A stretch of 64,000 nt of DNA from Schizochytrium sp. TIO01. Taxonomy: Eukaryota > Sar > Bigyra > Thraustochytrida > Thraustochytriidae. Of the stretch, positions 25,617 through 52,667 are shown in pieces. Within the stretch, counting starts at the first letter, position 1. Every line of letters starts with the position of its first letter. The position numbers and the translations under genes were made by a program. Where the stretch lies: assembly GCA_004764695.1 (NCBI GenBank), contig SMSO01000034.1, forward strand, positions 4,658,501-4,722,500. Direction: 5' to 3'. The notes beneath the pieces were generated by a model. That model was not told the DNA's origin. It did no database searches and saw nothing but the letters and a program-made list of their open reading frames with translations.

Positions 25617-26399
25617 CTGATCAAAAGCAATATAAATCTCATCTGACCAACTAAATACTAATTACACAGCTTTGAAGATCTTTTCCTTCGCGAACGTATT
25701 GTCTCCTCGTGATTATTCCGAGAATTTCATCCTTCTCCCTCCACTCCCAAAACTGATGTCATTTGCAGACGAAATTTAGTCTTGGTTTTTTGGTGTTTTG
25801 TTTTCAACGAAACAGGAGTATCTTACATAGAAGCCGAAGCATAAGCAGATCAAAACGTCCTTGCCTGACTTCATTATGCAACAAAAGACGGCCTGTGCAC
25901 CAGACTTGAGTACTTCGTAATCCCGCTGCAGTTTGAGGACGCAAATTTTACTGAACCCCTTTAGTCTCTCCAGAACATCTCACTTGACAGTGTCCTACCA
26001 AGTGAGATCAATGGTTTCTTTGCCTTTTCTCTGTGAATGCAGACTCGCCCACCCTTTCTGAGCTTGTTGTCTGACCAAGCCTTATCCCCTAACTAAAGCT
26101 AAGGGCAGTTAGGCTCTAAGTACTAGCACACAAATACTAGTCGCTACTAACTCCAAGCAAAGCTACTAGGAACCACCTTAAAAGTGGTTCTCATAACTAG
26201 GGTCTCAACGGTTGATGTTAGAAATAACCAACTCAGCATGATTTTATGAGCAAGACCTGGCTGCTCTTGCATCGCATGACAATTAAGACACCAGAATCAA
26301 AACGCTTGGGCTTGACAGGTGCTAGAGCACACGGCTTAGCAGGCGTACGGCCCAGTCTTGGAGTTGTCAGGGGCAAGCCCAAGTTGGACTGCGAAGGCG
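25617..26399. other. Intergenic, 783 bp
   Basis: It separates two plus-strand genes and must contain the 3' end of the upstream gene and the promoter of the WD40-like gene. It holds several CTAG/TACTAG words around 26100-26170 but no ORF or RNA gene that I can support. Confidence 0.6.
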
Positions 26400-28583
26400 A
26401 TGCAAGTCGATGTGGACTACTTTACAAGGACACTCAAGCCTCGTCAAAGCACAGCAGGCGAGAATGAGGCAGGGAATGCCAAGGGAGTGAGAGCAAAGGT
26501 AAACAAACTACGACTGTGGAAAAAGATTGAGAGCATTCGCTATCAGCAAAAGAACAAGGCAAACGAACGGAAGCTTACTGCGATTGCTACCTGTCGCAAG
26601 TCTAAGCAAGCTCGAATTTATACTCTCTATGCTGCCACAGAATCTCTCAGTGTGGTACGTAAGAAAACAAAAATCCGCAAATGTTCATGCCTAGCGCTTT
26701 CAGACAATGGAAACTATGCGGCAGCAGCTTTGTCTGATCAGCGTGCAGTGCAGATTTTTGATTTGAGCGTTGCGGAGCATAAGTTGATTGCACGACTAGC
26801 ATTTCCGATGCACAACCCTCTTGCAAAGCTACAAGACCAGGTCCATGCAGTGAAAATTTCAATAGCAGACAATGGAAAAGCACTTCTTTTGTTTACTGAT
26901 AATAACCAAGTATGGTTATATGGTGTCGAGAGCCCGCTAGCATGGCACCTTGTTGCAGATTACCAAGCCGTGCCACAAGCTCTTCATGTACAATGGCTAT
27001 GTACCAAGTCCTCAGAACTCGCCTTTACACTTGCTATGGGCTTTGCGTCATTTGGTCGAGACCCAAAACGATCCATTCTGGCTTTTACTCAAGAAGTCGT
27101 TCGCTGGGATACCTGGTCTGCAAACCTCCAAAGATCTGACTACCATGGATCCCAAATGACAATACATCACGAGCCCATGGATGCATGCGCCGTCCGGGCG
27201 ATGTGCCTTGCCACTACAAACGACGAACACACTTTGAATTTATACGCTTACGCTATCAACTTCTATGCTTCTGCTCATAGGAATCCATTGCTTATTATCT
27301 CACCAAGTCATAGCGAGCAGGTGATTGTTGTTGACATATTTGATGCACTAGCAAATTCATCGGAAAGTAGCCAGCTCCTCCAAACATTTGTGTGTGATTT
27401 GTGCTGGATTACACGCCTTCGAATCCTAGCCATGACCCTCTCAGATGGCTCTCTATGCCTATTTTCCAGTGCAGGTGCACTTCTAAACATTAGTGCACTC
27501 TCAAGTGAATCTTCTTATGAACCACGGCTCACATTCAGAGATTTAGAACCATTTGAGTTGCTTGGTAAAGTAGAACCTCATTTTGCTATATGTCATCACC
27601 CTGAGGCATCAGAACTTACTTGGTGTGATGGACATCGCAACCTCGTCCATGTGAAGCTACCAAACTTAGAACAACAACCCAATACACAAGCAGATGCCTT
27701 TGTATCAGCATTAAGCTCACTTGTTCCACGCATAAGTGGAGCCTTCCCCTTGCTTAAGGGCCTGCATTGTAATATGCGTGTTTCAAATGTTGGAAGGACA
27801 GTTCAAGCCTGGAGAGCATGCATGTTTGCAAGCCCTGCTCCATGGACTGCTCTAGAGCGTGCATGTGTCCAGAACGTCGCAGATTTGCTCATTCAGTCTC
27901 TAACACCCCTTGTGGAGGAAGAACCCCTTGCAGCTTTAAAACTTGCAACACAATCAATTACTGCAGGGCGATTGCAAGTTCACGCACTTCGAGAAACAGC
28001 GTATATTGCATGCGCTCTTGTAGAAGCATTTATCCGCAATGAGGAATTCTATGCAGCGCTGCACACATTGCGTCATGCTGAGGTATCTCTTCGTCACTGC
28101 ACAACGCAAATTTCTGAAGAGTATGGTCCAACTCTTGATCGTCATTGGTGGATGCTCGGGAAAGCATGTAATCAGAAGCTTGAATCTCTTCAAAGTATGC
28201 GAGACCCATCCTCAGATACTGCTGCAGATACTCTGTTGTTGCTTCGAGCAGTGCAAAGCTATTCTTTTCAGCGTTATAACGTTTGGACTACTGAGCGTAC
28301 GAAAGCACTAGATCTGAACTTCAAGGACCTTCAACTCAGCTTACCTGACAATCATGACTCCAAGAGTCTATCAGCAGATATTAGACCGAAGCTTAGATAC
28401 AACAGCGTACCAAGAGGTGACGAGTATTTCTTGATGGGTTTGTATGATCAGGCAGAAGATGAATATGCCTCTCATCCACTTGGTGCATACCCTCTAATTT
28501 GTCTTTGCTTGCGGCGAATGCGGCTTGAAAAGGCGCTGGATTTGGCCGAAACGTGGTGGTCCCAACCTGTAAACGCGCAAAAG
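26400..28583 (+). CDS. WD40-like large protein, segment 1 of 3 (possible CPLANE1-like)
   Basis: First of three plus-strand reading frames that probably form one protein of about 1,690 aa. The first ATG is at 26400 (MQVDVDYF); the open frame extends slightly upstream without an ATG. Residues about 50-450 have the strand-turn pattern of divergent WD40 blades (for example CLALSDNGNYAAAALSDQ, and CWITRLRILAMTLSDGSLCLF). About 480-728 is helical and TPR-like (MGLYDQAEDEYASHPLGAY). From memory of the family, the CWITRL segment and its flanks resemble the N-terminal half of CPLANE1, a ciliogenesis protein; this is tentative. The frame stops at 28584, but the adjacent frame continues a protein-like sequence from 28579. 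A single extra base in AAAA (28579-28582), a +1 ribosomal shift at AAG-TAA, or an 82-nt intron (28583-28664) would join them. Confidence 0.7.
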
Positions 28584-30075
28584 TAATCGCGCCGCACTAG
28601 GCTTACTCGGCACAATTATGGCAGCTGGATTCCTCAATGACCCCAAACTTGCAGCAGTTCCTAGCCCCTGTGCCGAACCTACTCGCCGATCCGTGCGCCA
28701 TCTTGACCTCAACCTCCTCGCCCGACAAAGCCGTAGAGTCGTTCGATGGGATGCCAGGTGGGCAGCATGCTTCCTACTTGCTGATGATAACCAGGTTCTA
28801 TCTTATCAAGTGATCATGAGGGCACGAGATCCACGCCAAGTCTTGCGAGTTTTTGAGACTGGCTTTGTTCGCGATTCATTCGAGATTGAGCAGCGATCAC
28901 AAATTCTTCAGCGGCAGCTAGTTGCTCAACTTGTTTTGAGAGATTTACGCATGTGTGCTCGAATTATCATATATAGTCGCAAGGTGAAGGAAAACTTGCA
29001 CGTGCGTCTTGCACTTTTGTGGATTCTACTGATTGATCTTGATATGGTAGACTTTGAAAACAAAGTGAATCATTTCGTTCTCTCCGTTGATAAGGTCCAA
29101 ATTGATGAATCACGAAGAGTGCATCACGCCCTATATATTGCAAAATTAGTGCTCTTAGTGGCATGGTCTTCAGGTTGTAACCTGACTTGGGAAAGTCCGT
29201 TACTACATGCATCAACTGAAAATGCTAGTGTTCTCCCCGCCCAAGCTGCATGGTTACAGCCTCTACGAGCATTGGTGATCGTGTTTTGGCGGATTACCAC
29301 TAATCAGCCGCGAAATAAGTTGCTCTCCGAGTTTCTGCGTTCCCACGGCAGGCTTGGAGATCTGCCTGGTAGGGAGTGTGAGTTTGATCTCTTTGCAGAA
29401 TGTAATACTCTTTTGGAAACTGCCGATGTTGATTTCACCGAAATTACACAAGTTCTACTGCGAGGCTCGCCCAATTTGGATGATGATGATAATATTGATC
29501 TGGGAAGTGTTGTTTCTCAACCTTTTGATGCTAATGACCCTGAAGGTGATGACTTTGAATGCCTTGAGGGAAAAGGCTCAGAGGATGAAAGTGAATTGCT
29601 TGATGATGAAAATCACACTCCTGGTACTGACTCGGTATCATGTTATACAGATGCTCATGCTGTAAACCAAAACAATCTCACACAAGACTTATTTCAGGAT
29701 GATAGCCAGAGCGCAGCTTCACGAGACAGTGTCCTCGTTCATGAGATCTCCTCTGACCATAGTTATTCTGGAGATGAAGAAGATATGAGTGAAAAATCAA
29801 TCCTTACCATACCCGAACAGAACGGCGAAAACGAAGATGGCGCAGACAATATTTTTGACGATGAACATAGTCAAAATACCAATGCTAAAAGTCACTCATC
29901 CATAAAACTCCCAGAATATGAGGAGTCAGATAGCGATTTAGCTAGCATATATTCTGAAGATAGTAGTGATGAAAGCGACTTTGAGGATCATAGTCTCCTT
30001 AGTAAAGACAATGAATCTCTCTCAATGCCCCTCTCTCCGCCAAGTATGTCAAGCAACAGTTCAGCTGATGGGGAA
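28579..30075 (+). CDS. WD40-like large protein, segment 2 of 3: helical and acidic part
   Basis: The frame is open from 28573 and reads KSNRAALGLLGTIM directly after the break. The ATG at 28618 is therefore more likely internal than a start. Residues up to about 29460 are mostly helical, with hydrophobic stretches (VRLALLWILLIDLDMV, IAKLVLLVAWSS). From 29480 the protein becomes strongly acidic, with Asp/Glu/Ser clusters to 30075. The frame itself runs on to a stop at 30159. The following frame carries the better continuation, so a 58-nt intron at 30076-30133 is proposed: phase 0 on both sides, acceptor CTGTTCCTCCGCAG good, donor GTCGAA weak. A one-base indel in AAAA near 30110 would also join the frames. 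Confidence 0.65.
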
Positions 30076-30133
30076 GTCGAAGGCCCGAGCCCATGGATAT
30101 TTAATACACAAAACCTCGCCTGTTCCTCCGCAG

Positions 30134-31540
30134 ATTATTCACGTCTCCTCGCGAAGTGATGATGAAATGCATGCACTTAACCGCTTAAGGAGTCAATATG
30201 GGGAAATGAAACAAATTCTAGACCGACTTGGATCTGATCAACGGCATGCAGAAGAGCGCACAACAAAGCAACTACATGGAGCATTCGAAGCCTTGGCCAG
30301 TCGTCTTGAGCAGATCGCGGAATCAGTACAGATTCGACAAGTAGAATCTATAAGGAACCTAGAAGAAAAACTGCTTACACATCAAACTGCTTCTGGCCAG
30401 AGGCCCGAGGCTGTAACTGAGAATAAGCAATCCGATGAAGTATTGCAGAGCCCTGATAGCGCAAGTGACTCTTCAGAATTTGACCACTACTCACAGAGCT
30501 CGTCACAGCAAAGTGATGAAGAGGATGAAACAAACCTCCCTCATGGCCTCGCAGCCCAGCAATTTCTCCGTCACGTCCGCTATCGAGGCACACGAAGTCA
30601 TTTACGTGAGCCAACAGATAGACTTCCATCCACTAGCTTTGAAGCTGATAAGGAAGAGGCGCACCATTATATGTTTCCAGGTCTGACGACTTCACCAAAT
30701 CCGAGTCGCAAGAAGGCAACCCGTCGATACTGGCCTACGCAACTTGATGAAAACGTACCTCCGCTACTTATGGTCCATCCAACTACAAAACAAACCTCTC
30801 GAATGTATCGCCACAGACGCAATATGGCTCAACACGCTACTATGGCGACCCAGACGGACAATGTTAACGAACTTTCACCTGCTGTAATGAAACCAAAAGA
30901 TACTCTTGCACAGCTAAACACAAATCTCCCAGTAGCCTTGGAGGACTCTGCCCCAATTTCTCCCCCGCCTCCTCCTCCGCCTCCGCCTCGGTCCCTGGTA
31001 TTTCCTGAGCCAGTTTATCAATCGCCAAAGGACTTTGTGCCTTCACCTCCTCCATCACCCCCACCATCACCCCCACCATCATGTTTGCTCTTACAAGAGG
31101 AAGAGCAAATCGAGAGCAATGCTACATTGAGCTTCGATCCTCCTTTGGAAACGCTTGCTAAAAACCACAACTCCAAAGCTGTACAGACCGCTACCCCCCC
31201 GGGTGATCCGGTGTCCGGTGGTGTTGAGATGAGCGAAAGGCTGCGTAAGATTAATCTGCAATCCAAAGAGTTCTCTACACAAGTTTCATTCTTACGTCCT
31301 AGCGCGGAAGGGTATCCCCAAAGTATTCTACCACATGTACCTCCTGATCTTTACCTTCGGATGCGGGCCCATGGAGTTGCGAGCAAATACAACTCCCAAG
31401 AAGGTTTAGCATCCCGTAGTTATCTACATATTGCCCCTTTGAAAGCATCCTCTGTAGGTATTGCTCAACCTGCTCACGAGGAAGTATCGAGGCCTATTTT
31501 TCATAAATCTAAACGGCCTCGTTTCCGTGGAGTACTATAA
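30134..31540 (+). CDS. WD40-like large protein, segment 3 of 3: coiled coil and proline-rich tail
   Basis: This is the C-terminal 468 aa, read from the proposed acceptor at 30133. A long charged helix near the start (IIHVSSRSDDEMHALNRLRS onward, to about 30375) has coiled-coil spacing. It is followed by Ser/Asp/Glu-rich linkers and two proline runs (nine Pro at about 30961-30990, then SPPPSPPPSPPPS near 31045-31080) that could bind SH3, WW or profilin-type partners. The chain ends in a basic KSKRPRFRGVL. The frame has no good ATG of its own before 30160, which supports its being an exon of the upstream gene. The stop lies only 82 bp from the end of the convergent minus-strand ORF. Confidence 0.65.
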   Translation: MIHVSSRSDDEMHALNRLRSQYGEMKQILDRLGSDQRHAEERTTKQLHGAFEALASRLEQIAESVQIRQVESIRNLEEKLLTHQTASGQRPEAVTENKQSDEVLQSPDSASDSSEFDHYSQSSSQQSDEEDETNLPHGLAAQQFLRHVRYRGTRSHLREPTDRLPSTSFEADKEEAHHYMFPGLTTSPNPSRKKATRRYWPTQLDENVPPLLMVHPTTKQTSRMYRHRRNMAQHATMATQTDNVNELSPAVMKPKDTLAQLNTNLPVALEDSAPISPPPPPPPPPRSLVFPEPVYQSPKDFVPSPPPSPPPSPPPSCLLLQEEEQIESNATLSFDPPLETLAKNHNSKAVQTATPPGDPVSGGVEMSERLRKINLQSKEFSTQVSFLRPSAEGYPQSILPHVPPDLYLRMRAHGVASKYNSQEGLASRSYLHIAPLKASSVGIAQPAHEEVSRPIFHKSKRPRFRGVL

Positions 31541-31622: not shown

Positions 31623-32171
31623 TCATGGAGACTTGGGAGACTTTTGATGCTCATAGCACCAAATCCTGACGACTTGGCCATCTTCAAGAGTCTCTCTATG
31701 TTGAAAAATACCCATTTCACGACGAATCGCCTTTGCTTTGTCCCAGCTCCATCCATGATCTTGCACCGTATGCTTAATGTAACTAAGTCTAGATGGTCCA
31801 TGTGCAAGAGCTTGTTGGAGAAAAGTACGAATCCTAGCCGCGTCATCCTGCTTAATAGGCTCAATATCTGTTTTTGCTGCTCCTGTTGCTGTTCCTGTTG
31901 ATTCTGCTTGGGAAGAGAAAGCGGAAGATGAAGACTTTAATTGTTTGCTTTCCCGTGGTAAAGGCGGAGAAGCGGTAGTCAAACATGCACTGTTTTGGTT
32001 GTCCGCTAACTTATGATTATTGATCTCACGGTTTGATACAAGAGTTGCAGAAGAGGTCTTTTTTGCATCTTCAACATTATCATGAACTTGATCTTGAAAT
32101 GCAGAAGGACGTCGCAGAGCTAATTCTGACATAGCTATTGGTGATCTTGTTATGCTATCAGTTGTATCCAT
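31623..32171 (-). CDS. 182-aa protein or last exon of the channel gene; winged-helix-like C terminus
   Basis: The ORF starts at an ATG (32171) that overlaps the end of the channel frame by 14 nt and is read +1 relative to it. Residues 1-105 are Ser/Thr/Ala-rich and look disordered. Residues about 111-175 (from ARIRTFLQQALAHGPSRLS to VVRIWCYEHQ) look like a compact helix-turn-helix/winged-helix fold, recalling the small wings found after some primase/helicase domains. This is pattern-level only. A 58-nt intron at 32126-32183 (donor GTCTTA weak, acceptor ATGTCAG) would fuse it in frame to the channel after LENKLRA. A one-base shift in the AAAA at the GAAAATAAG stretch would too. An independent overlapping gene would be unusual in a eukaryote. 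Confidence 0.5.
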   Translation of the reverse strand: MDTTDSITRSPIAMSELALRRPSAFQDQVHDNVEDAKKTSSATLVSNREINNHKLADNQNSACLTTASPPLPRESKQLKSSSSAFSSQAESTGTATGAAKTDIEPIKQDDAARIRTFLQQALAHGPSRLSYIKHTVQDHGWSWDKAKAIRREMGIFQHRETLEDGQVVRIWCYEHQKSPKSP

Positions 32172-35100
32172 TCGACTTAAGACCGGCGCGTAACTTATTT
32201 TCAAGCTCTTGGAAACGAATAGATTGCTTATCCATGGCCTCGCTATAGTTTAGAAGAGCGGCATTGGCCATTGCGGGAGGATGTTGTGCTGGCAAGCTCG
32301 TATTATGACTACTTGGTTCAATAACTTCAAAAGCTTCCTCTTCACGCTTCTCGTAGATTGCTTCATTGCTCATGTTTGCAATAATTTTGCGCGAATCCCA
32401 ATAATTAATATCCAAGTCTCTGAATAGATGCTTATGTTTGCGATTTGTTCGCAATGACGATTCAATTTCCTCGGTAATAAATTGCTCCCACATTGAATCA
32501 CTTGCTTCTCTCTCCTTGGGATACACATCTGTAACAATAGCAATGAGTAAATTAATATTAATTGTTGCAAACATGATGAAGCTTGCTGCTGCCAGTAGCC
32601 CAGACCAAGAAGTTGACGCGATCAATTCAAGCCCATCCCAACTCTCTACAAATGGGGTATAGAATAACGAGTAAAATGTGCTCCCAAAAGTCATCCAAGG
32701 ACTTACACTTGATCCAAATCCCACATGAAAACAAAAAGCTAGTAAAAAGCATGCAGCGGCTACCACGAGTAGATAGATACCAACGGCAAGGTTAGTAATG
32801 GTATTGGTGAGTGCAACAATTACAGGACCAATATCTGGAATTGACCGTGCAGCACGTAATAGTGGAATCATGCTTAGCAGAAAGATCACAGCTACCGTTC
32901 GACGCTCGGTTTGTAAGAGGCGGTGATGTTCGCCCCAAGAAGAAAATTCACTACCTGAAACATTAGTTCGGATACCCCTGGTCTGAGCAAAAGCTTGATA
33001 ATCGATCACAAGAACCGTAAGCAAAAGTGCAAGCACAACAAAAACGACTGCTGGAGGCTTCCGAGAACGAATAATTTTTGAGTGCATAGCGTAAGAGAGT
33101 AACAGAAGTATCATCCCCGCAACTGTGCCTTCGAACTCCCTTGAGGGAGGAAACCGACGATAATCGACTCTAAACTCCTGGACACTCACGTCCAGACTTG
33201 GACCCGCATAGAACGAAGTTGACATAGTAGCTTGAACTATGCCATAGATGTTATGAAGTGGGTTATATAGGTTCATTTCGATCGAGAGGACTTGCATACC
33301 ACCAGTGTCATTGTGCCGTATAGTCGAGTTCATAACTGTTGAAATTTGTTCCGAAGTGCTTTGAGCCAGAATTGATACAAATGATTCACCTGTCTCTCTC
33401 AAAGACTCACTTGCGTCTTGCCAAACTAGGCCATGAGCAAGCAAAGGTAAGACAGTTTGCTCCAACTTTAATCCTCCAATTACACGATTGTATCCCATAT
33501 AGATGAGTGAATCATCTGTGATATTAAATCTAAATTGATTCGGGAACTCATTCACTAACCAATTCTCCATGTCCTCAAAGGACTTCACATCTTGTACGTT
33601 GTCCTCAATTTCTGCCTTCAAACTTTCTCGCCAGCTACGTTCTGCTGTAACATCATAATCAGGCGCAAGTTGAACCATCATTGCAAACCATACTAAAATT
33701 CCAATCAGAACTGTAGTTCGTCGAAAGAACTGCCACATTGCATGCCGGTTTCGCCAGCGACGTACGGAATGAGACAAGTTTAACACATCAATAAGCTCAG
33801 TCGATGCTACAAGCTGAAGTTCTAGCTCTTTGAGGATGTGCTGCAGCTCGCGAAGCGGCTTATTTGCAATCGACTCCGGAGTCAACTCGGAACGAGCATG
33901 TTGCAGAATGCCTCCTCTCTTGGAATCCTTTAGTAGTGAAGCGCGAGGTCCATATTGAAAAGGAGCTGATGGAAAGCCCCAGTGCATGGAGCGTTCTTGA
34001 ACCTCTGCTCGTAATCTTTCAACATCATCAGCAATATGAATGTGTTGGTATAATGCTCGGTAGTAAGGTGTGAGCGGCCCTGCATCCGTCCCAGGCTCCT
34101 CCATAATAGGATCCGCAGATAGCTCGATCAGACTTTTAACAACCTCGATCTTTTCATTCTGGACAGCCATAGACAGGGGCGAGTACATTGAAATGTGTTG
34201 CTTAGTTTCCTTAACGTTGGAGTGACTTACTCCAAGCGGTGCAACGGCTGTTGAGACGAGCTTAGGTACAACTAAACGTAAAACACTCCATCGTGTGCGA
34301 GCTTTAGCGCTTTGTGGGATTGGGCTATCTCCTTTCGTTTGTGAAACTGAAAAACTTACAGATTTGTTCATCTGCGGATCGTCCAATGACATGAGTTCTT
34401 CAATCTCCAAGCTCTTGTCAACCTTTGCCATTTCTGAAAGCTGAAGAGTTTCTACCCCCCGTAAGCTAAGATTGACAATTTCATCGACTTGATAAAGCTG
34501 CTGCAAATGACGAACAAGGTATTCACAGCATTTAGTATGCCCTTGATATGCAGCATGATGCAATGCAGTGAAACCAAGATTATCAGGGATGAGAACTTTT
34601 ACATCTACTTCTGACTCTACAAGTATCTTGCACATTTCAAGATCACCTATATACGCTGCAAGAGACACCGCTGTAAAGCCGTTTGTATCTCGCCGATTTG
34701 CATCAACATGGAGTGCCAACAAATGCCGTACAGTTGAATAGTGCCGACCAAGCACCGCAAGAGAAAGCGCTGTTCTTCCGTTCTTGTTCTTTACGTTAAG
34801 ATCGGCACTTGCATTCTGTACCGAATGAGATAGAATAATATTGATCGAATCAAGATGCCCACGGCGCACAGCTGCAAGCAAGTATGAGTTCAACAATTGC
34901 TGGCGCATTTGATGCACATTGTGAAACGTAAGTTTTTCACATGTCATGTCAACTGATTCTCGCCTTGCCCTCTCCTGTGTTCTCTTAAGGATATTTGCAG
35001 TTGCGTTTTCGCTTACAGGGCATATTTCCCAGCCCAAACACATGATTGCCTTGATCGTCTCTTCTACGCCTTGCACCAGATCAAACTTTTCAGTTTTGTT

Positions 35101-37677
35101 GAGTTTCGAGTAGGGTACTAAGGATGCGTTGAGTTTGAGGTTGCTTGCGATATTTCGGTGCGGAGCATATCGCCAACCCTGGGTGATTTTCTCACGAGCC
35201 CAGACTTCATGAGAATTGACTGAAATGCATCGGATTAGTTCCTCCAAGTGAATCGATAAGGTGCTCGATACCTTGCTAGTATCAATCGAAGCACAACCTG
35301 GCTTATCCTCATCCCATTCCTTATCAGCATAGCGAAGAGATTTTCGGTGATCACGTCCAGTTGGCGGAGACTTGCGCAACGGCTCCTGAGTGTCTTTAGA
35401 CGGTGGCTCCAACCTGAAACCCAACAAGAGGATAAGTTTCACCGTCTCAGAGGCCATGTGCATGTTATATTTCGCTTCTTCGGCTGTGAGATCTTCAAAA
35501 GGAACTAATAAGGGATGCAGCTTAGCATTGTCGTCGCGTGTTTTAGAATATGACCAACTATCTTTAATTTTCTGCATGCACCACACATTGTGCATATTTC
35601 TCGCAAGCCTTCTCGCAAGCGCCTTCGTTGTTGGGCTTAGGCGCACCACACTCGTGTCTAAAGGTTGAGGGTCGAATGTTTGAGCAGCGTGTTCCCTTGC
35701 ATCAAAAGGTTTAATTGCTTGACAAACCCAATGCGGTTTAGTGCTGCATTCACAAAGTGAAAGGCTAAAACCTTTTGCCACTAGAGGCCCTTCGCAGTTC
35801 TTATGGCATCTCTCACGGCACACAAGGCATACATCCATCTCACATTTCGAACAATAATACATGAATTGCAGCATATGTTTGAAATCGGCACATGAGGATG
35901 TACATGTCTCTGGGGACTCGATTCGTTTTGTTAGTGCAACGAGTGCGTGGTCAATACGTATGTCATTCTCTGGAGCAAAATTCAATATGCTTTCACATCC
36001 CTCGACATCTCCCATAAGCACAAGGCGATGTAAGAGCTCTTGCATTCGTCCACGTTCAGCTGATGCATAGCAACCCATCCGCAGTAACATCCGTACTGCT
36101 TCAAGGTTATCCTTTTCGATAGCAAGATCAAGTTCTGTAATTCCCTGCTCTCGAGAGGCCTCTGCAAGAGGAGGGTGTATGGCACGATTGATTTGGAAGA
36201 CATCTTCCACGCGTTCTGCATTTGCTTCGGCGTCTTGCCATAGCTCAACCAGCGTCCGAATGACTTCAACGTTTCCATTAGCAGTGGCCAAATGTGTAAA
36301 TGAGTAATGTGCTAAAGTAAGCTCATTAATTGGCAAAGGAGCTTCAAAAAATGGCTGCCCAAGTAGTTTGCTCCACGAAAGATGCGCAAAGGCCCCACTT
36401 CTTGCCGCGTAATGTAAAGCATTCCAACCGTCCTGGTCGACAGCTTGCAAAAGTCCTACAGGACTTAGACTGTATTCGAAAAGAAGCTTGGCACACCGCG
36501 CGTGGCCTTCACTTTCTTGGGATAAAGCAAGCATTAGAGCGGTTCGTCGGTACATGTCTATTGCTTCAATGTGGTTTGAGGCACTGTTTATTTGGAGAAG
36601 AATTTCTACAATCTCAGGTTCGCCTTGTTCGCAAGCTACAATCAAGGATGTCTGAGAGTTAGGTGGGTGCTGATGCATAGCGACAGAAGCTCTGAGTCGT
36701 TCGCTAGAAAGCATCAAGAGACGCACGCATTCTGTGCGGTAAGTGCGCGGAGCAAAATATAATGCTAAGCCCAACGGGGTAAGTCTCTGATCGTCCTGGA
36801 CTCTAGGATCGATGTCAGGACACATTCGTAAAAGAGTCTCTAGCGCTTGAATATTCCCTGAAAGGCAGCACGCATGCAGAATTGTCCTTTGACAGTAGCT
36901 CGAACGTGCATTGATATCCACAATCTTGTTAAGGCGGTCCTCAGTAAGAACCCAGTGCTCTGACTGAGCAAGAAGCAACACGGTTTCATCAATAATATTT
37001 CCTGGAATCCTATCGTACAGAGAACTTTCAATCGTAGCAACAATGTCTGTAGTTTGTACATAATGAATTTTATTTTGTGAGTTTTGCATGTGTACCTCTT
37101 CATCACCAGTATCATTTAAGGTTGCCTCTCGAAAGCAGGCGTCCTGAACAATATAGATTCGTGCATCTTGCACATGGACGCATGCATCAATCGCAGTATA
37201 TCGTGTTGCATCCCCTGCACCACAAATATAAAGATCGTCGACTGCACCAGAGCGATGCAAAATTGTTTTCATAGCCGTAAGTGTTTCTGAACCATAGTCT
37301 CGAAATGCAGAGTACGTGTCACGTTGAGGGTCTGTGCCCGTGAAGATAATATGGTTATCGATGGCAAGACGCAAAGGTGTTGCTCCACTGGTCCCCGCAA
37401 CACATTCTTCATTACGAAGACGTTGGGTGTCCCCAAGTTGTAAAATATAGCGAACTTCTCCCTTTTGCGCACCGGGGTGGTTTTCTACAAATGAACAATG
37501 CGTACATGGATGATACTTCAGGCAAATAAAGACCTCATCGAAGAATCCATCAGTCTGAAGGTGTTCGATATTTGCAAGGACCAAGTCCGGGTTGTCTGAT
37601 CGCTTATAAATATCTTCTTGCACGTGCATGAGGACCAAGCCTCGTTTCCTTCTCGGCTTTCGAGGTGTTTGGCTCAT
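32158..37677 (-). CDS. Polycystin/TRP-like channel fused to pseudo-nicotinamidase, ankyrin, UBR-like and RyR domains
   Basis: 1839 aa, ATG at 37677. Domains in order: isochorismatase/nicotinamidase fold, about 10-220 (HPCTHCSFVENHPG, DTYSAF, ICGAGDATRYTAIDA); ankyrin-type repeats, about 225-580; a Cys/His box, 592-655, like the UBR zinc finger of UBR4 (YYCSKCEMDVCLVC then RCHKNCEG and CEC); RyR domains, about 685-757 and 805-888 (NVWCMQKIKDSWSY; EVWAREKITQGWRYAP); ankyrin repeats, about 925-1060 and 1160-1220. The channel follows: TM1 about 1321-1338, a large extracellular polycystin-type loop to about 1510 with N-glycosylation sequons, TM2-TM5 (1516-1652), pore near 1657-1682, TM6 to about 1716, cytosolic tail. 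Catalytic residues of the first domain look lost: Asp to His18, Lys to Thr113, Cys to Ala157. PKD2-family channels pass cations at ciliary, plasma or ER membranes; the rest is probably cytosolic sensing and scaffolding. The protein may continue into the 31623-32171 ORF. Confidence 0.88.
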   Translation of the reverse strand: MSQTPRKPRRKRGLVLMHVQEDIYKRSDNPDLVLANIEHLQTDGFFDEVFICLKYHPCTHCSFVENHPGAQKGEVRYILQLGDTQRLRNEECVAGTSGATPLRLAIDNHIIFTGTDPQRDTYSAFRDYGSETLTAMKTILHRSGAVDDLYICGAGDATRYTAIDACVHVQDARIYIVQDACFREATLNDTGDEEVHMQNSQNKIHYVQTTDIVATIESSLYDRIPGNIIDETVLLLAQSEHWVLTEDRLNKIVDINARSSYCQRTILHACCLSGNIQALETLLRMCPDIDPRVQDDQRLTPLGLALYFAPRTYRTECVRLLMLSSERLRASVAMHQHPPNSQTSLIVACEQGEPEIVEILLQINSASNHIEAIDMYRRTALMLALSQESEGHARCAKLLFEYSLSPVGLLQAVDQDGWNALHYAARSGAFAHLSWSKLLGQPFFEAPLPINELTLAHYSFTHLATANGNVEVIRTLVELWQDAEANAERVEDVFQINRAIHPPLAEASREQGITELDLAIEKDNLEAVRMLLRMGCYASAERGRMQELLHRLVLMGDVEGCESILNFAPENDIRIDHALVALTKRIESPETCTSSCADFKHMLQFMYYCSKCEMDVCLVCRERCHKNCEGPLVAKGFSLSLCECSTKPHWVCQAIKPFDAREHAAQTFDPQPLDTSVVRLSPTTKALARRLARNMHNVWCMQKIKDSWSYSKTRDDNAKLHPLLVPFEDLTAEEAKYNMHMASETVKLILLLGFRLEPPSKDTQEPLRKSPPTGRDHRKSLRYADKEWDEDKPGCASIDTSKVSSTLSIHLEELIRCISVNSHEVWAREKITQGWRYAPHRNIASNLKLNASLVPYSKLNKTEKFDLVQGVEETIKAIMCLGWEICPVSENATANILKRTQERARRESVDMTCEKLTFHNVHQMRQQLLNSYLLAAVRRGHLDSINIILSHSVQNASADLNVKNKNGRTALSLAVLGRHYSTVRHLLALHVDANRRDTNGFTAVSLAAYIGDLEMCKILVESEVDVKVLIPDNLGFTALHHAAYQGHTKCCEYLVRHLQQLYQVDEIVNLSLRGVETLQLSEMAKVDKSLEIEELMSLDDPQMNKSVSFSVSQTKGDSPIPQSAKARTRWSVLRLVVPKLVSTAVAPLGVSHSNVKETKQHISMYSPLSMAVQNEKIEVVKSLIELSADPIMEEPGTDAGPLTPYYRALYQHIHIADDVERLRAEVQERSMHWGFPSAPFQYGPRASLLKDSKRGGILQHARSELTPESIANKPLRELQHILKELELQLVASTELIDVLNLSHSVRRWRNRHAMWQFFRRTTVLIGILVWFAMMVQLAPDYDVTAERSWRESLKAEIEDNVQDVKSFEDMENWLVNEFPNQFRFNITDDSLIYMGYNRVIGGLKLEQTVLPLLAHGLVWQDASESLRETGESFVSILAQSTSEQISTVMNSTIRHNDTGGMQVLSIEMNLYNPLHNIYGIVQATMSTSFYAGPSLDVSVQEFRVDYRRFPPSREFEGTVAGMILLLLSYAMHSKIIRSRKPPAVVFVVLALLLTVLVIDYQAFAQTRGIRTNVSGSEFSSWGEHHRLLQTERRTVAVIFLLSMIPLLRAARSIPDIGPVIVALTNTITNLAVGIYLLVVAAACFLLAFCFHVGFGSSVSPWMTFGSTFYSLFYTPFVESWDGLELIASTSWSGLLAAASFIMFATININLLIAIVTDVYPKEREASDSMWEQFITEEIESSLRTNRKHKHLFRDLDINYWDSRKIIANMSNEAIYEKREEEAFEVIEPSSHNTSLPAQHPPAMANAALLNYSEAMDKQSIRFQELENKLRAGLKSNGYN
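35014..35625 (-). other. Two RyR domains in the channel
   Basis: Residues about 685-757 and 805-888 each match the RyR repeat pattern: an N-terminal helix, then NxHxVWxxxKIxxxWxY, RD/RN, HPxLVPYxxL-like and a final ETxKxIxxLG(F/W) helix. Known RyR domains occur as two tandem pairs in ryanodine receptors and singly in some prokaryotic proteins; their function is structural or possibly ligand-binding. A 47-residue charged linker separates the two copies. Confidence 0.75.
35713..35904 (-). other. UBR-box-like zinc-binding module inside the channel
   Basis: Residues 592-655 contain Cys at 592, 596, 609, 612, 617, 620, 624, 628, 642, 644 and 652, and His at 625 and 649. The spacing YxCxxCxxxxCxxCxxxCHK and then CxC follows the UBR box of UBR4/poe-type proteins rather than a RING or ZZ finger. 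Classical N-recognins use this fold to bind N-degrons. UBR4-type boxes lack some of those ligand residues, so binding here is unknown. Confidence 0.65.
37018..37650 (-). other. Isochorismatase/nicotinamidase-fold domain of the channel, probably catalytically dead
   Basis: Recognised by the run HPxxHxSFxxNHPG (residues 56-69), ECVAGTSGA (91-99), DTYSAF (120-125) and ICGAGDATRYTAIDA (151-165). Family enzymes use an Asp in VDVQxDF, a Lys before the DxYSAF block and a Cys four residues before TALDA. Here these are His18 (in LMHVQED), Thr113 and Ala157. Of the metal ligands, both His of HPxxH remain, but the preceding Asp is Lys54, and the His of the PxHC motif is Glu91. The scaffold appears kept while the chemistry is gone, which suggests ligand binding or scaffolding. 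Confidence 0.8.
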
Positions 37678-39105
37678 GTTGATAGCCTCCGGAAATACCT
37701 TCCCACCACCAAATTTCTGCGTGTCAAACTTTTCGCAATACCACCCGGCCGCCTTACATATGGTCCCGATCTGCCGTGCGAAGTCTCTACCAGCTTATTT
37801 GCTGCTTTGTCTGAGGTCCGCAAACACTTTTGATAGAAATATTCCTCTTCCAAACGTTGTTGCTGTCGCTGTCGCTGTCCCTCTGAACTCTGTATTGTTT
37901 TGCTGCAGCCAATACTTTAGTCTGCACACATTTCTATACCATTTGCTTCTCAAAGAGCCCAAGCTACAGCCACTTAAAGGTTGTCTCTGTAACAACCTGA
38001 TCAGTCTTGGGACTTCCTTGCACTTCTCGTATTACCATCTCATTTGTCCGTTTCTAAAGGATACTCCTTATGGGTCCCCCATTTCTTTCTACAATATTCA
38101 TTTCGTCACAAAGGCATTATGACATAAAACATCTTCCCATATTTGGTTCTGAAGAATGTCAATAGGCGATGCATTGCTCGAATTGCAGGATAATCACGTG
38201 GGTATGTATGTGCCTCATCCGTACTTAGCTATTGCACTTCAGATGGAAAGCCTGTACTACTAGGTGTATTTAGCACTACCAAGGCATCTACTAGGTACTA
38301 CCTACCGGTATCAGTAATTGGTAAATAGGCCACTACTACCGCAGGGTTAATTGATTGAACATTATATTATTCAATTTATTTGACCAACAACTTAAACTCC
38401 AAGTTGGTTGGCGAATTAATATAAAACAATCATGCGTTGCTATTCCCTACCCGGCAGAGCATTTCTGCCATTAGGTCCTTTTTTCTACCAGCAACCGTAC
38501 TTCTTCTTGGAGATGTAATAGCCTGAGTGATCGACAGCTGCAAGCTTGGCATCTGTATTTCGTGAAGCCCTCATTCATAGTCTCCTTTTGCAATTAAGGC
38601 ACCTATGTTGGATCTCAGTTAGTTCTTCTTGACGATAAAACATTTGCACTAGCGAACTAAAGTTTACGATGTGTACGAGATATTGATAAGAGTCATTTAC
38701 AAGAAATAATAATAGTCCCATTCGGCCCTTGTGGTATCTTTGATGTTTTGGACCCTTCTTCCGTCCGATCCGCTAATGAACTATCATTTCAAGGTTAAGC
38801 AAGAATGACTTCGGCACCGATCCAAGGAGGCAACAATACCGATTCCTAGACCGCGGGGTGTATTCACGTTTCGTGTACCTTGTCTTGAGTAAAGCACGCA
38901 AAAGGTTCGTGGGTTGTAGCAGGATCCGGTGCGCACTTTTACAGTCTTGAGCTCATCTCAACAACTTCTCTGAGCATACGAAATACCTGCGAAAGTCGCG
39001 CCCAAAATTGAAATACCGAAAGTTCTAACGCAAGAGCATAAGTGCACCTCCCAAGTTGAAAATCAAGGCTCGCGGGAGTGTTTGGAAAAACTAGCACAAC
39101 CAAGG
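37678..39105. promoter_or_regulatory. 1.4-kb divergent intergenic region (channel / METTL7-like)
   Basis: The two flanking genes are transcribed away from each other, so both promoters should lie here. I see TACTAG/CTACC-rich short repeats near 38255-38340. A plus-strand ORF at 37628-38122 has no recognisable domain and overlaps the channel start, so I left it out. Confidence 0.5.
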
Positions 39106-40038
39106 ATGACAAGTGCTCCTTTGATGCTTGGCCCTGAGCCAATTGAGATTGATGGGAAAGAGTATGTGGTTCGATCTGATATGGTTCGCAGGCGCAAGCC
39201 TCCGACTGTGCAGGCAAGAACGCAAAAGATGCTCGCGTATCTGGGGGTGTTAGCTGGATTGGCAGCGTCAAGACGGCTTCGTTTGTTTTTTGCTGCCGGA
39301 TTTGCTGGATCAGGTGTGGCAATGGCTTTGCTCTACACCATCATGCGCTCCTCAAAATCATTGAGTGAAGCAATTACTTCACGCCTACTTCCTCAAATGA
39401 TGGCGGGACTTGACATTGCAATGGGCAAAGTGAAGAAGGAGCTACTCAAGGACTTGAAAGGAGATGTTCTCGATTTTGGTGCAGGCGATGGACAGTACTT
39501 AAAATACGTTGCGAGCCAAGTAGATAAGATCAAATCTGTGACTAGCCTTGAGCCCTTGCAAAAGTTTCATACGAAGATTGAAGAGCGCGCGAAAGCACTC
39601 GGTGTGCCTTTCAAGGGCGTTTATAAGAAGTATTCCGCAGACTTGCTTCGCGAGCGTGGTCCAGAGCAATTCGACACCATTATTGTTGGTTGTGTTCTTT
39701 GCGAAGTACCAGATCAACACGCTGCAGTCAAGGATCTGTATCAGTTACTTCGTCCTGGAGGAAAGCTTTTCTACATAGAACACGTTGCTTACGAGGAAGG
39801 AACCTTGCTCAATTACCTTCAACAATTTATCAATCCTTTCTGGAGAGTTGTGAGTGGCGGTTGCAATTGCAATCGCCATACTCTGCGTGCAATTCGATCC
39901 GCTCCCTGGAATGTGTTTACTTGGGAGCTACTGACCGATGTTCCTCTACTAAATCGCATGCAAACAGGCCTCGCTGTCAAGGAAGACCTCGCTAATCCTG
40001 ATATCCATACGCCTACGAACAACAATGCACGTCTTTAA
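39106..40038 (+). CDS. METTL7-like SAM-dependent methyltransferase, membrane-anchored
   Basis: 310 aa from the ATG at 39106 (MTSAPLML); the open frame starts 24 nt earlier at a TTG. Residues about 42-80 contain two hydrophobic stretches split by a basic RRLRL, likely a membrane anchor or hairpin. The class I methyltransferase core follows: motif I VLDFGAGDGQYLKYV (about 121-135), acidic end of strand 2 in SVTSLEP (about 144-150), FDTIIVGCVLCEVPD and LLRPGGKLFYIEHV. The phrase SLEP..FHxKIEERAKALG and the IEHV loop are typical of METTL7/TMT1, which in animals methylate thiols at the ER and lipid droplets. The substrate here is unknown. Plant and bacterial UbiE-like relatives are the alternative. 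Confidence 0.85.
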   Translation: MTSAPLMLGPEPIEIDGKEYVVRSDMVRRRKPPTVQARTQKMLAYLGVLAGLAASRRLRLFFAAGFAGSGVAMALLYTIMRSSKSLSEAITSRLLPQMMAGLDIAMGKVKKELLKDLKGDVLDFGAGDGQYLKYVASQVDKIKSVTSLEPLQKFHTKIEERAKALGVPFKGVYKKYSADLLRERGPEQFDTIIVGCVLCEVPDQHAAVKDLYQLLRPGGKLFYIEHVAYEEGTLLNYLQQFINPFWRVVSGGCNCNRHTLRAIRSAPWNVFTWELLTDVPLLNRMQTGLAVKEDLANPDIHTPTNNNARL

Positions 40039-40845
40039 AATCTCACGTAAGGCATTCAAGCAGTTCTGGGTATTTGATACTCGTACGCCTTGGTTTTTTA
40101 CCTATGCGATGAAAAGACGTATCATAGTGCTGCTCAATAGGGGTTCTCCGCGCCAAGCAAAAAAAGAAAAGAAAAACTTATCATCTATCATCTCCAAGCA
40201 CCAACAAATGTTTAAGCTAAGGATATAACTTGTAGAGTTTATTTACTACATACCAACTGCTGCTTATTCTCATCCTGCAACCATGGGGTGCCGTGTATGC
40301 CACTCATGATACCACTAACAAGATGGGCAATTATGCAGAGGTAGGTAGTACTCTGCTTGCTAGTCTGGTTCTGACCCGCCGTCACGAAGGTTGCAGAAGG
40401 ATAGCACAGTCGAGCAAGGAATTCAATTGTTAACATTGCTCTCGCTTCTGAACTTGATGATCCTGTCTTTGGATTTCACTCACAGAAAGAAAAGTGTCAA
40501 ATGCCAGTAGACGCACATAGGTGCTATGTTTTTTACGCATGTTAGAACTGCAGTCAATAATGTCCTCTGATGAAATCACTTGCTTAAACGCAAAGAAGGA
40601 AGTTGTTGTTTACTTAAATCTAGGGCTCCACGAGCCATTCTGCGAGCGGTCTTTGCATGAAGGCAAAAAAAATGTGACATTTATTATTATCTATATTTGA
40701 TTCTATAAATGCTGAGTTGCCACCTTTGTGTATATAACTCCAATAAATCGATACAGGAAAACGTGGGAAAAACAATTTCATTTAAAAAAGAGTGATGCAT
40801 GCAAAGAAAATCATCAAACATTCGTAGCTTAGTAGTCTATCAAAT
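40039..40845. other. 807-bp convergent intergenic region
   Basis: It lies between the 3' ends of the METTL7-like gene and the phosphoglucomutase gene. Short ORFs only. No RNA gene or repeat recognised. Confidence 0.6.
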
Positions 40846-42726
40846 TTAGGTGATCACAGTGGGACCCTCACGCCCGGTAATGGCGTGAATGTCAGAAAAG
40901 TCAAGGGCCAGCTGTACAAGGGACTCGAGCGCCGTAGCGGTCTCCTGGTTCGTGTCTTCCTTGCTGTATTTCTCAATGTACAGGCGGATTGTGGCGCCAA
41001 CGGAGCCAGTTCCGGAGAGGCGAAAGACGAAACGAGAACCGTCGCCCATAAGGAAACGCCAACCCTGGTTCGGGGAGATGGAGCCGTCAACCTCATCGTG
41101 AAATTCGAATTCATCGCATTTCACGAGCGTGAAGCCACCTCCGACCTCGAGAGGCTTCTCGCCCGTGAGCTGGAACATGAAGATGATGCCATTAAGGCGG
41201 GCCATGACCTTTTGTGCGAGGTCTGCCTCAACATTCTCATAATCATACCGCGTGTAGTAGTTACGGCCAAAGTTCTCCCAATGCTCACGGACCACATCTT
41301 CGACAGATACAAGCGGCTTGGACTTATCGGTATTCTTGGCTGCAAGGATGTTAAGCCAGCAAAGTACTGCGAAAATACCGTCCTTCTCGCGAATGTGGTT
41401 GGACCCCGTACCGAAGGACTCTTCTCCACAGAGCACGGGGTTGAAGTCCTTTTCACCGCCGGTGAGCTCCTTGGCGTCCATGAGGTTTCCAAAATACTTC
41501 CAGCCTGTAGGTGTCTCGAAAAACTTCATATCCTTATCCTCTGCCACGCGATCTGCCGCTCCAGATGTCGGCATACTGCGAGCCACCGTCTTGAGACCGT
41601 CCTTGAAAAACTTGATACACTCTGCATTGTTGGCAATCACTGCGAGTGAGTCCGAAGGAGTCACAAAGAACTGTTTTCCGAGAATCATGTTACGATCAGC
41701 ATCACCGTCTGCGGCAGCTCCGAAGTCTGGGAGACTGTCAGGATCTACGTCGGCGAGAGCGCATCCCTTGGAGTCCAAGCCCATGCTCTTGACCAGGTCA
41801 TGAGCGTAAGTGAGGTTGGGATCCGGGTGGCCTCCGCCAAAATCCTCGAGAGGCTCGCAGTTCTGAAGCTGCTCCAGAGGCACGCCGAGTTCCTGGTGGA
41901 AGATGCGCTTGGCAAAAGGACCGGCCACACCGCTCATGGCGTCGTAGGTGAAGGTGAAATCATCGCGTTCCAGGAAGGCCTTAATTTCCCCGAGGTCAAA
42001 GACTTCATCCATGAGCTGCGCATATGTTTCAGTAGAGTCAATGACTTCGACGCTAAAGTTGTCTCCAAAGGAGGTCTCACCAACGGTGGCAAGGTCTACT
42101 TCGGGAAGGTCGGCGATCTTATACTCAGAGATCGTCTGGGAGATCTTGAAGATGGCGTCAGTAATGGCCTCGTTTGCAGGGCCACCGTTGCGGGAGTTGT
42201 ACTTGAGACCGCAATCTTCGTTAGGGCCGGCAGGGTTGTGGCTGGCAGTCATGATAAAGCCTCCGGCAGCGCCAAGGGACCGGATGAGGTGGCTCACAGC
42301 AGGCGTGGAGATGAGACCCTCAAGACCGACCACGACCTTTGCAACGCCGTTGGCACAGGCCATGCGGATGATGGTCTGAGCCATTTCTTTGTTGTAGTAG
42401 CGGCCATCACCGCCAAGAATCAACAGATCTCCCTCGGGATTGGCGTCGCCTTTAAGAGAGTCAAAGGTGGCCTGGACGAAGTTCTCAACGTAGTTTTCCT
42501 GCATGAAGACCTTGGCTTTCTTGCGAAGACCCGAGGTGCCAGGCTTCTGGCCCTCATAGGGCTTCGTGCTCACTGTCTGGATCTTGGGGCTGCTCATCGT
42601 GGCAAAAGGCACTTGCTGCCTCGCTCTCAATCGGATTTGCGTTCGGATTTGCTGTACCAACATCGCCTCGGCGAGGCTGAAGCAACGACGACTATAGTAA
42701 TTGGAAAGAGCACTAAAAAATATCAT
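40846..42726 (-). CDS. pgm: Phosphoglucomutase (alpha-D-glucose 1,6-phosphomutase)
   Basis: Interconverts glucose-1-phosphate and glucose-6-phosphate, linking glycolysis to UDP-glucose and storage-glucan synthesis. Visible motifs (numbering from the first Met): GTSGLRKK near 63-70, phosphoserine loop TASHNPAG with Ser162, metal loop DGDADRN 340-346, sugar-binding GEESFG 434-439, and the C-terminal phosphate site RLSGTGS. The PGM1/Pgm2 eukaryotic form fits well. In-frame ATGs lie at 42726, 42663 and 42597. Starting at 42597 (MSSPKIQTVSTKPYEG) gives 583 aa, close to the usual 560. Starting upstream adds 22-43 residues that are basic and acid-free over MLVQQIRTQIRLRARQQV, like a mitochondrial presequence. 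The longest frame is given. Long antisense ORFs across this gene are codon-bias shadows. Confidence 0.95.
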   Translation of the reverse strand: MIFFSALSNYYSRRCFSLAEAMLVQQIRTQIRLRARQQVPFATMSSPKIQTVSTKPYEGQKPGTSGLRKKAKVFMQENYVENFVQATFDSLKGDANPEGDLLILGGDGRYYNKEMAQTIIRMACANGVAKVVVGLEGLISTPAVSHLIRSLGAAGGFIMTASHNPAGPNEDCGLKYNSRNGGPANEAITDAIFKISQTISEYKIADLPEVDLATVGETSFGDNFSVEVIDSTETYAQLMDEVFDLGEIKAFLERDDFTFTYDAMSGVAGPFAKRIFHQELGVPLEQLQNCEPLEDFGGGHPDPNLTYAHDLVKSMGLDSKGCALADVDPDSLPDFGAAADGDADRNMILGKQFFVTPSDSLAVIANNAECIKFFKDGLKTVARSMPTSGAADRVAEDKDMKFFETPTGWKYFGNLMDAKELTGGEKDFNPVLCGEESFGTGSNHIREKDGIFAVLCWLNILAAKNTDKSKPLVSVEDVVREHWENFGRNYYTRYDYENVEADLAQKVMARLNGIIFMFQLTGEKPLEVGGGFTLVKCDEFEFHDEVDGSISPNQGWRFLMGDGSRFVFRLSGTGSVGATIRLYIEKYSKEDTNQETATALESLVQLALDFSDIHAITGREGPTVIT

Positions 42727-42773
42727 TCCTCCTTATAATCACCCATCTACCATTAACCATAACAGTATTCATT

Positions 42774-42854
42774 AAAAAAAGAAAAAAGAAAAAAGAAAAA
42801 AGAAAAAAGAAAAAAGAAAAAAGAAAAAAGAAAAAAGAAAAAAGAAAAAAGAAA
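42774..42854. repeat. (GAAAAAA)n 7-bp minisatellite
   Basis: About eleven near-perfect copies of a GAAAAAA unit, 48 bp upstream of the first in-frame ATG of the phosphoglucomutase gene. Confidence 0.95.
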
Positions 42855-43163
42855 GTCAGGACACAGAAGATGAACAGAATATCGATCGCTTCCTATCTGC
42901 ATACTGTACCGTCCTTTGACAAACAGCTCAAGGTTCCCGGGATGGTGCTCAGACATGGAGAAACAGCGAACGCTTCTATGCTAGACGAAGCCGCTAGATG
43001 CGACGGCTCTGCGCCTCTGGCTGCTCTTTCCTCGGCTTGGCTTCGGGCTCCTCGGAGTCTTCGCGGTGCTTTTTTGTGGGGATATCATTCTTTAGTTTTT
43101 AAAGTTTTTTTTTTAAAGTTTTTTTTTGTAACTTTCTCAAACTTTTTTACCTCATTTTTTTCC

Positions 43164-43258
43164 CATCATCATTATTATACTATCATTATCATCATTATCA
43201 TCGTTATTATCATTATCATCTTTATTATCATTATCATCATTACTACCATTATTATTAA
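43164..43258. repeat. (ATT/ATC)n imperfect trinucleotide repeat
   Basis: About 95 nt of mixed ATC, ATT and TTATC units, followed by AAAAT pentamers. Confidence 0.9.
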
Positions 43259-44435: not shown

Positions 44436-44441
<6 letters not shown>

Positions 44442-44467
<26 letters not shown>

Positions 44468-44482
44468 CATACATATATATAT
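44442..44482. repeat. (TA)n microsatellite
   Basis: Thirteen TA copies then an ATACATACATATATAT extension. Confidence 0.9.
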
Positions 44483-52191: not shown

Positions 52192-52667
52192 TGAAAAAAC
52201 TTTGATAGGATTTAATAAGCATAACCAGACATGATAAATAACCATGTTTTTGCGTTTCGTTAGGTGATTTTTAGTACAATCCTCAAAGCAACAAAAAGTT
52301 TGCTGTCTTATTTGCTATTATCACACATCTAATGACAAGGACATGGAAGAAAATGCTCTTTTTGCTGCCCTTTCTTCTAAATGATTTTTTATTATTATAA
52401 TGATGTGCTCTTGGTTTGTTATCCTAAATCACTTTGCATTTACTGCCTACTGCCCTTATTGATACAAGGGGACTCGTTCTGTACAGAAGAATTGATCTGG
52501 TTCAGGCCAGGGTAATATCATGGCAGTCAATCAATAGTGTTCCCCGCTTATTGATTCCACGCAGCCTCGATAGCTGCAGCAACTGAATTGATTAATGAGG
52601 TGGAGGATGAGGACAAGAAGATCGCCAAGGCAGAAATAATATAAACTACAGCCCTGAGATTATAATT
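52192..52667. other. 476-bp convergent intergenic region
   Basis: AT-rich sequence between the 3' ends of the GBF1-like and LSm6 genes. No ORF or RNA gene recognised. Confidence 0.6.

Follow-up and report, generated by a model that had tools for sequence, protein, structure and literature searches.

Domain architecture of the locus

The window analyzed here is a 64,000-nucleotide stretch of the Schizochytrium sp. TIO01 genome (contig SMSO01000034.1, positions 4,658,501 to 4,722,500), and it holds a long open reading frame (ORF) on the minus strand (Table 1). This frame contains no internal stops, a run with a chance probability of ln p = -106.6 given the base composition. An earlier note on this DNA, made from the letters alone, had described one uninterrupted frame of 1839 codons in which a pseudo-nicotinamidase, ankyrin repeats, a UBR-like module, RyR domains and a polycystin channel follow each other, and both the ORF and the domain scans confirmed these modules in that order. 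As judged from its sequence, this architecture almost certainly belongs to a single chain.

Table 1. Features of the channel gene in the window
Feature	Position	Strand	Extent	Remarks
Main ORF	32158..37677	-	1839 codons	ATG at 37677, stop at 32158
C-terminal tail	31623..32183	-	186 codons + stop	frame differs from that of the main ORF
Nicotinamidase-fold pseudoenzyme domain	37012..37641	-	residues 13-222	
First ankyrin stack	35953..36957	-	about residues 241-575	Pfam; boundaries approximate
UBR-like Cys-rich zinc module	35722..35904	-	residues 592-652	zf-UBR below threshold, plus family profile
RyR domain 1	35407..35676	-	residues 668-757	
RyR domain 2	35023..35289	-	residues 797-885	
Second ankyrin stack	34483..34902	-	about residues 926-1065	Pfam; boundaries approximate
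Third short ankyrin-like stretch	34033..34197	-	about residues 1161-1215	ankyrin nature and boundaries are our reading
Predicted polycystin-type (TRPP-like) channel	32383..33762	-	residues 1306-1765	
Extracellular TOP-like alpha/beta domain between S1 and S2	33142..33657	-	residues 1341-1512	

The suspected RyR region matched PF02026 in two copies (159 bits) and RyR1 with an E value of 5e-53. The UBR-like module contains nine cysteines that are invariant in the nine members compared. Its assignment held for a family profile, which matched the UBR box of UBR4 (E 1.3e-4), but not for profiles run on single sequences: zf-UBR scored 12.4-13.3 bits against a curated cut-off of 25.2, and single-sequence Pfam scans listed zf-UBR in two of the nine members (best E 0.17) and IBR in three (best E 0.0038), all below cut-off. 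The name UBR-like is used here for what appears, from these matches, to be a distant relation to the UBR box. The third ankyrin-like stretch is 51% identical to that of the orthologue from Hondaea and 44% identical to that of the paralogue, both described below, and was matched as residues 1159-1232 in a search of the genome itself.

The natural protein extends beyond the stop codon of the window ORF. The near-identical protein P0002 (1999 aa) differs from the window protein (P0001) at six of 1812 shared positions and starts 18 residues inside the start of the window ORF, an offset that we read as a difference between gene models. Both P0002 and the Hondaea protein P0003 continue past the window stop, and the tail listed in Table 1 equals the last 186 residues of P0002 letter for letter, which in P0002 are continuous with the channel chain. 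Because the relatives extend past the stop and the same 186 residues are encoded in another frame, the ORF is real and the natural protein is longer; going by these alignments, it consists of 1831 shared residues plus 186 and ends at 31623. An intron at the 3' end of the ORF was ruled out, since the last residues of P0002 are encoded directly onward in the other frame. The frame change may be an assembly error or an allele. The final 79 residues of the tail are 51% identical to Hondaea (E 5e-27), and they may resemble a winged-helix domain. A Pfam scan of the window tail returned no families. The tail of another relative, P0008, seems similar to that of the window, and its Pfam scan yielded YvrJ alone, a weak match of 17 bits, below cut-off.

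The frame break close to the 3' end, as compared to P0002, means that the assembly or allele is not faultless at this point, and this could be taken to favor a fusion produced by gene modeling or assembly from two neighboring genes. Such an artefact is highly improbable, however, as the frame is uninterrupted from the N-terminal domain to S6 both in the window and in a paralogue on another contig, and the joined chain is found again twice in Hondaea (P0003 and P0006) and also in the transcriptome-derived P0008.

Fold and ancestry of the N-terminal domain

An isochorismatase fold had been proposed for the N-terminal domain, and this was not borne out by Pfam alone: PF00857 gave no match on the window protein at E<=10, and only 12.8 bits on P0003. 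As PF00857 was silent on the window protein, other profile libraries and structure were brought in. A search of NCBIfam returned an isochorismatase/nicotinamidase-type match in the domain, below the cut-off of the model, and both a PDB sequence search and structure comparison supported the isochorismatase/nicotinamidase fold, which we regard as confirmed. The N-terminal domain of the paralogue P0004 matches PF00857 above the Pfam cut-off (72 bits, E 7e-20), the PDB nicotinamidase 2wt9 with an E value of 2.4e-45, and NCBIfam NF008623 with 163 bits, under its cut-off of 174. Since this domain is an unmistakable relative of nicotinamidases, the ancestry of the window domain is settled.

The alignment of the N-terminal domain took in 24 of the 120 stand-alone hits listed. 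A midpoint-rooted tree was built with 37 of the stand-alone hits that bear Lys (118 in all), and 12 of its 45 inner branches are unresolved. In it, a 100/97 branch separates the stand-alone enzymes from the nine domains attached to channels and the two putative fragments. The window type lies on a very long branch (3.83), and its exact position is therefore not trusted. Two proteins, P0002 (the P0001 gene) and P0005 (the P0004 gene), were excluded from the residue, tree and conservation counts.

Orthologue and paralogues in thraustochytrids

Protein and genome searches found the architecture again in thraustochytrids, in an orthologue from Hondaea, in a paralogue within the same genome and in further proteins. 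As Hondaea belongs to the Stramenopiles, the stramenopile origin implied by the earlier note fits. These protein searches reach relatives that share exact five-residue words, and two of the three were also limited to proteins of similar total length. The orthologue P0003, from Hondaea fermentalgiana (a thraustochytrid; Labyrinthulomycetes, Stramenopiles), is 2017 aa long and 54% identical to the window protein, shares its catalytic and metal-site losses, and carries only the database name 'Ankyrin repeat domain-containing protein 1'.

The paralogue P0004 lies on contig C13 of the 64.06 Mb, 37-contig genome, where it occupies 2108 codons in one frame, and it matches the window protein piecewise from residue 33 to 1779. 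Seven proteins among 705 candidates of similar length were found with its first 240 residues. One of these, P0005, differs from P0004 at two of 2108 positions and is for that reason taken as the same gene, leaving six others, whose N-terminal domains are 86% (P0006, from Hondaea), 75% (P0007), 65% (P0008), 56% (P0009, in which the catalytic Cys is lost), 54% (P0010, 3051 aa) and 53% (P0011, 2670 aa) identical to that of P0004. The isochorismatase domain scores above the Pfam cut-off in P0004 and in all six. RyR domains were detected by Pfam in P0004, P0006, P0007, P0008, P0009 and P0011, and not in P0010. P0008 comes from a transcriptome, and its ORF is complete within an assembled transcript, which speaks for a single mRNA across the whole paralogue-type chain.

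In P0010, residues 190-397 match a further family, the SMODS-associated NUDIX domain (PF18167), with 26.8 bits against a cut-off of 25; the nicotinamidase-like, ankyrin and polycystin-like parts come after it, the last of these below cut-off. Its chain may hold two NAD-metabolism-like folds, as read from its profile matches, or the layout may be a gene-model fusion.

The channel region resembles polycystins

The PF08016 model expected for the channel did match the window protein, but only with 17.6-20.9 bits, under the cut-off of 22.4. The same family scores 28.7 bits in P0004, where PF00520 is also above cut-off, and among P0006-P0011 it exceeds the cut-off only in P0011 (22.9); a pore family is thus above cut-off in P0004 and P0011, and below it or absent in the other five proteins of the paralogue type. 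In the window-type protein P0003, PF00520 is above cut-off (29.2). The channel regions of P0006-P0009 and P0011 align with that of the window protein. Polycystin is the best match of the window channel by family profile, structure comparison agrees, and an extracellular TOP domain with the polycystin fold lies between S1 and S2. The structure model of the channel has intermediate confidence (pLDDT 69.6), and the structure alignment covers parts of the channel other than the pore. TRPM chains matched the channel profile only weakly (E 0.015 and above), which places the protein outside the TRPM family, and insect Inactive matched at the pore end (E 9.5e-4), ranking below the polycystins. From its profile matches and the structure model, the gene product is predicted to be a TRPP/polycystin-type cation channel of a thraustochytrid, with an enzyme-derived domain and a TRP-superfamily pore in the same chain.

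At least 24 PF08016 matches are present in the 64 Mb genome at E<=0.01, two of them in frames of more than 2000 codons. This count is a lower bound, because the window gene and the paralogue are both missing from it, and by such profile counts the polycystin-like family is expanded in this genome. A search of viral contigs with the channel alignment gave 31 pattern matches, none of which was confirmed.

Active-site residues of the two types

Residues are referred to below by PncA numbers; the transfer of these numbers to alignment columns, the position of His51 as a metal ligand and the role of Tyr103 are our own assignment. In Mycobacterium tuberculosis PncA, Asp8, Lys96 and Cys138 are described as catalytic, Asp49, His57 and His71 as metal-binding, and Phe13 and Trp68 as active-site residues (PMC4331714). 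In the window type (P0001 and P0003), Asp8 is replaced by His and Lys96 by Thr, and Cys138 is absent. In the metal site, Asp49 has become Lys or Arg and His71 has become Glu, with His51 and His57 kept. With all three catalytic residues and half of the metal site gone, the suspicion that the domain is a pseudo-enzyme proved right. Trp68 is replaced by Arg and Phe13 by Ile or Val, with Tyr103 kept; given the loss of this active-site Trp and Phe, nicotinamide itself may not bind.

The paralogue type (P0004 and P0006-P0011) retains Asp8, Asp49, His51, His57, His71, Phe13 and Trp68 in seven of seven proteins, and Cys138 in six (Thr in P0009). Lys96 is present in none, the position being Ala in all seven. 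Among stand-alone hits (the best 120 of 5716), this position is Lys in 118; the exceptions with Ala among those listed are P0012 and P0013, which lie on short contigs (1818 and 2679 bases) and could be partial members of the channel family. In a bacterial nicotinamidase, that of O. iheyensis, the corresponding Lys to Ala mutant is reported to have 1.45% of wild-type activity, and the same report notes that the mutant was initially insoluble and that poor refolding was suspected (PMC3581539).

Metabolic setting

At E<=1, PF00857 matched the genome in two places only, the paralogue and a MAR1/ISOC-like gene, and missed the window gene. The isochorismatase relative on contig C24 is MAR1/ISOC-like and not a nicotinamidase. 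An exon-by-exon profile search of the genome found no nicotinamidase beyond the paralogue, though a heavily split gene could escape it, and no NAMPT_N; NAPRT was clearly matched (TIGR01513, 518 bits). At face value, nicotinamide released by NAD-consuming enzymes would lack an ordinary way back, and so would be usable as a signal.

The term chanzyme, which the earlier note had applied to the window protein, is a poor fit, because the site of this protein is missing what nicotinamidase activity requires; the paralogue, with its Asp, Cys and full metal site but not the Lys, is the better candidate. The paralogue type might indeed be a working, slow nicotinamidase on a channel and a true chanzyme, with the window gene as its dead duplicate. 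Retention of Asp, Cys and all four metal ligands is in line with this, and so is the metabolic setting, where a nicotinamide-to-nicotinate step would be useful given a clear NAPRT and no match for another nicotinamidase or NAMPT_N; a self-limiting chanzyme also needs a slow enzyme (PMC11479946). We nevertheless find it somewhat doubtful, as the catalytic Lys is Ala in seven of seven proteins, a change that left about 1% activity elsewhere (PMC3581539), P0009 lacks the Cys as well, and a split nicotinamidase gene could have been missed in the genome search. It is compatible with the sensor reading that we favor below.

The dead domain is conserved

In four of five paralogue-type pairs, the nicotinamidase domain ranks first in conservation among the eight regions compared, with identities between P0004 and P0006, P0007, P0008, P0009 and P0011 of 92, 80, 68, 60 and 56%. 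The exception is the P0007 pair, in which the second ankyrin stack is 81% identical. P0010 was left out of this pairwise comparison and of both structure alignments. Between the window protein and its Hondaea orthologue, identity is 54% in the N-terminal domain, an average value for the chain, 72-73% in the RyR region and second ankyrin stack, and 60% in S2-S6. Within the window-type domain, the former active-site loops (residues 56-127) are identical at 55 of 72 positions, as compared to 56 of 135 elsewhere (Fisher p 2e-6, for two sequences and with bounds chosen after the alignment had been inspected). The difference is small in the paralogue type (P0004-P0008), with 55 of 76 positions in the loops and 81 of 124 elsewhere. 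As a relic domain would be expected to drift, the conservation observed points toward a domain that is dead but kept. Conservation of the loops could instead reflect a protein-protein contact.

Nicotinamidases are oligomeric, and the fold could serve tetramer assembly. The domain might then have a structural or oligomerizing role, or offer a docking surface to other proteins, with all binding of small ligands lost. The loss of catalytic residues, of two metal ligands and of aromatic residues of the active site in the window type would agree with such a role. This reading is unlikely, in our judgment, because within the window-type domain conservation is highest in the former active-site loops, and because a scaffold would not need the metal ligands, Phe and Trp kept in seven of seven paralogue-type proteins, nor the Cys kept in six.

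A predicted ligand sensor on a polycystin-type channel

To our knowledge, enzyme-derived domains on channels have rarely been described. TRPM2, in which an ADP-ribose-binding NUDT9-like domain is coupled to a TRP channel, is one example, and by analogy with it the window protein is probably a TRPP-type channel with an enzyme-derived ligand sensor, comparable to NUDT9-H on TRPM2. In both systems, an enzyme of NAD-related metabolism is joined to a TRP-superfamily channel, and its activity is kept in some members (here, at most, in the paralogue type) and lost in others. Unlike the Nudix domain at the C terminus of TRPM2, however, the isochorismatase/nicotinamidase domain is at the N terminus here, and the predicted pore is polycystin-type rather than melastatin-type, with ankyrin, UBR-like and RyR modules in between. 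Human TRPM2 is reported to be catalytically inactive, while the Nematostella and choanoflagellate forms are active (PMC6461439). Abolishing catalysis in Nematostella TRPM2 left its currents unchanged (PMC6461439), so that even a working enzyme need not gate. For the choanoflagellate chanzyme, the published account is that ligand leads to assembly of the enzyme domains and an open pore, and that slow hydrolysis ends the signal, slowness being required (PMC11479946). The TRPM2 analogy drawn by the earlier note holds in that an enzyme-derived domain is joined to a TRP-superfamily channel, and the published chanzyme provides a mechanistic parallel (PMC11479946).

By the proposed mechanism, the N terminus with its nicotinamidase-derived ligand-binding domain would be cytosolic, catalysis having been lost. 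A ligand would enter the old active site and change the shape or contacts of the domain, the ankyrin/UBR/RyR stack would relay this movement, and the polycystin-type pore would open or close, as NUDT9-H does for TRPM2. Ligand binding, transfer of the signal to the pore and conductance are inferred.

From the residues it retains, the paralogue type would most likely sense nicotinamide, or turn it over very slowly, though we hold this less firmly than the sensor reading of the window protein. The window pocket is too changed for nicotinamide to be claimed, and another ligand or a partner role is likelier: the remodelled pocket would most likely accept some other small ligand, perhaps a charged one, or the protein would be a regulatory partner of the paralogue in a mixed tetramer. 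A bolder reading, which as a whole we consider speculative and rather improbable, is that of a two-gene system in thraustochytrids, where the paralogue would sense nicotinamide, left over from NAD-consuming enzymes, and, through the Lys to Ala change, destroy it slowly, the window type would be its dead and re-tuned partner in a mixed tetramer, and the channel, in a cell with no match for another nicotinamidase or for NAMPT, would read NAD consumption into a calcium signal.

The window protein differs from polycystin-2 and PKD2L1 (TRPP) in that other modules, about 1300 residues in all, precede S1; we know of no such modules at this place in polycystin-2. With nicotinamidases such as PncA and Pnc1, the N-terminal domain shares fold and family, and it differs in that the triad is lost (window type) or without Lys (paralogue type) and in its fusion to a channel. 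With ryanodine receptors the window protein shares the tandem RyR (PF02026) repeats and nothing else; MIR, RIH and SPRY domains were not listed for it by Pfam at E<=1, and its pore is polycystin-like.

Nicotinamide is reported as an agonist of the TRPV channels OSM-9/OCR-4 of C. elegans and Nan-Iav of flies (PMC5064019), and inhibition of nicotinamidase as raising neuronal nicotinamide in flies, in a paper that argues against nicotinamidase being the chief target of the insecticide flonicamid (PMC11766345). In those systems nicotinamidase is a separate enzyme, whereas here a nicotinamidase-derived domain lies inside the channel chain. The finding meets a separate puzzle, the opening of some animal TRP channels by nicotinamide (PMC5064019). 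If this domain binds nicotinamide, it would be a natural and testable sensor between NAD turnover and ion flow.

No earlier description of a nicotinamidase fold paired with a polycystin-type channel was found among the matches listed from open-licence PMC papers. This pairing of enzyme class and channel class would represent an independent instance of an enzyme-derived domain on a channel, at the other end of the chain and in a distant eukaryotic group. The series from enzyme to Lys-less domain to fully dead domain within one family makes it possible to trace, residue by residue, how an enzyme turns into a sensor.

Genomic surroundings

Elsewhere in the genome, the best RyR match (122 bits) is the lone RyR domain of a protein of 222 aa (contig C30; L022:3046-3714, plus strand), near which lies a 621-aa ORF that is ankyrin-like by our reading. 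Within the window, three long plus-strand ORFs occupy 26358-31540 and end about 80 bases from the convergent 3' end of the channel gene; those at 28618-30159 and 29966-31540 overlap each other in different frames. Pfam gave no match to these three at E<=1e-5, and they are perhaps exons of one gene. The neighbors at 39082-58012 are ordinary, and include genes for a methyltransferase, phosphoglucomutase (40846-42726, minus strand), a Sec7-domain exchange factor and an MCM helicase. Long plus-strand ORFs antisense to phosphoglucomutase, at 40885-41649 and 41800-42738, are most likely mirror frames and not genes. Near window position 8000, the GC content jumps from 0.34 (6001-8000) to 0.51 (8001-10000).
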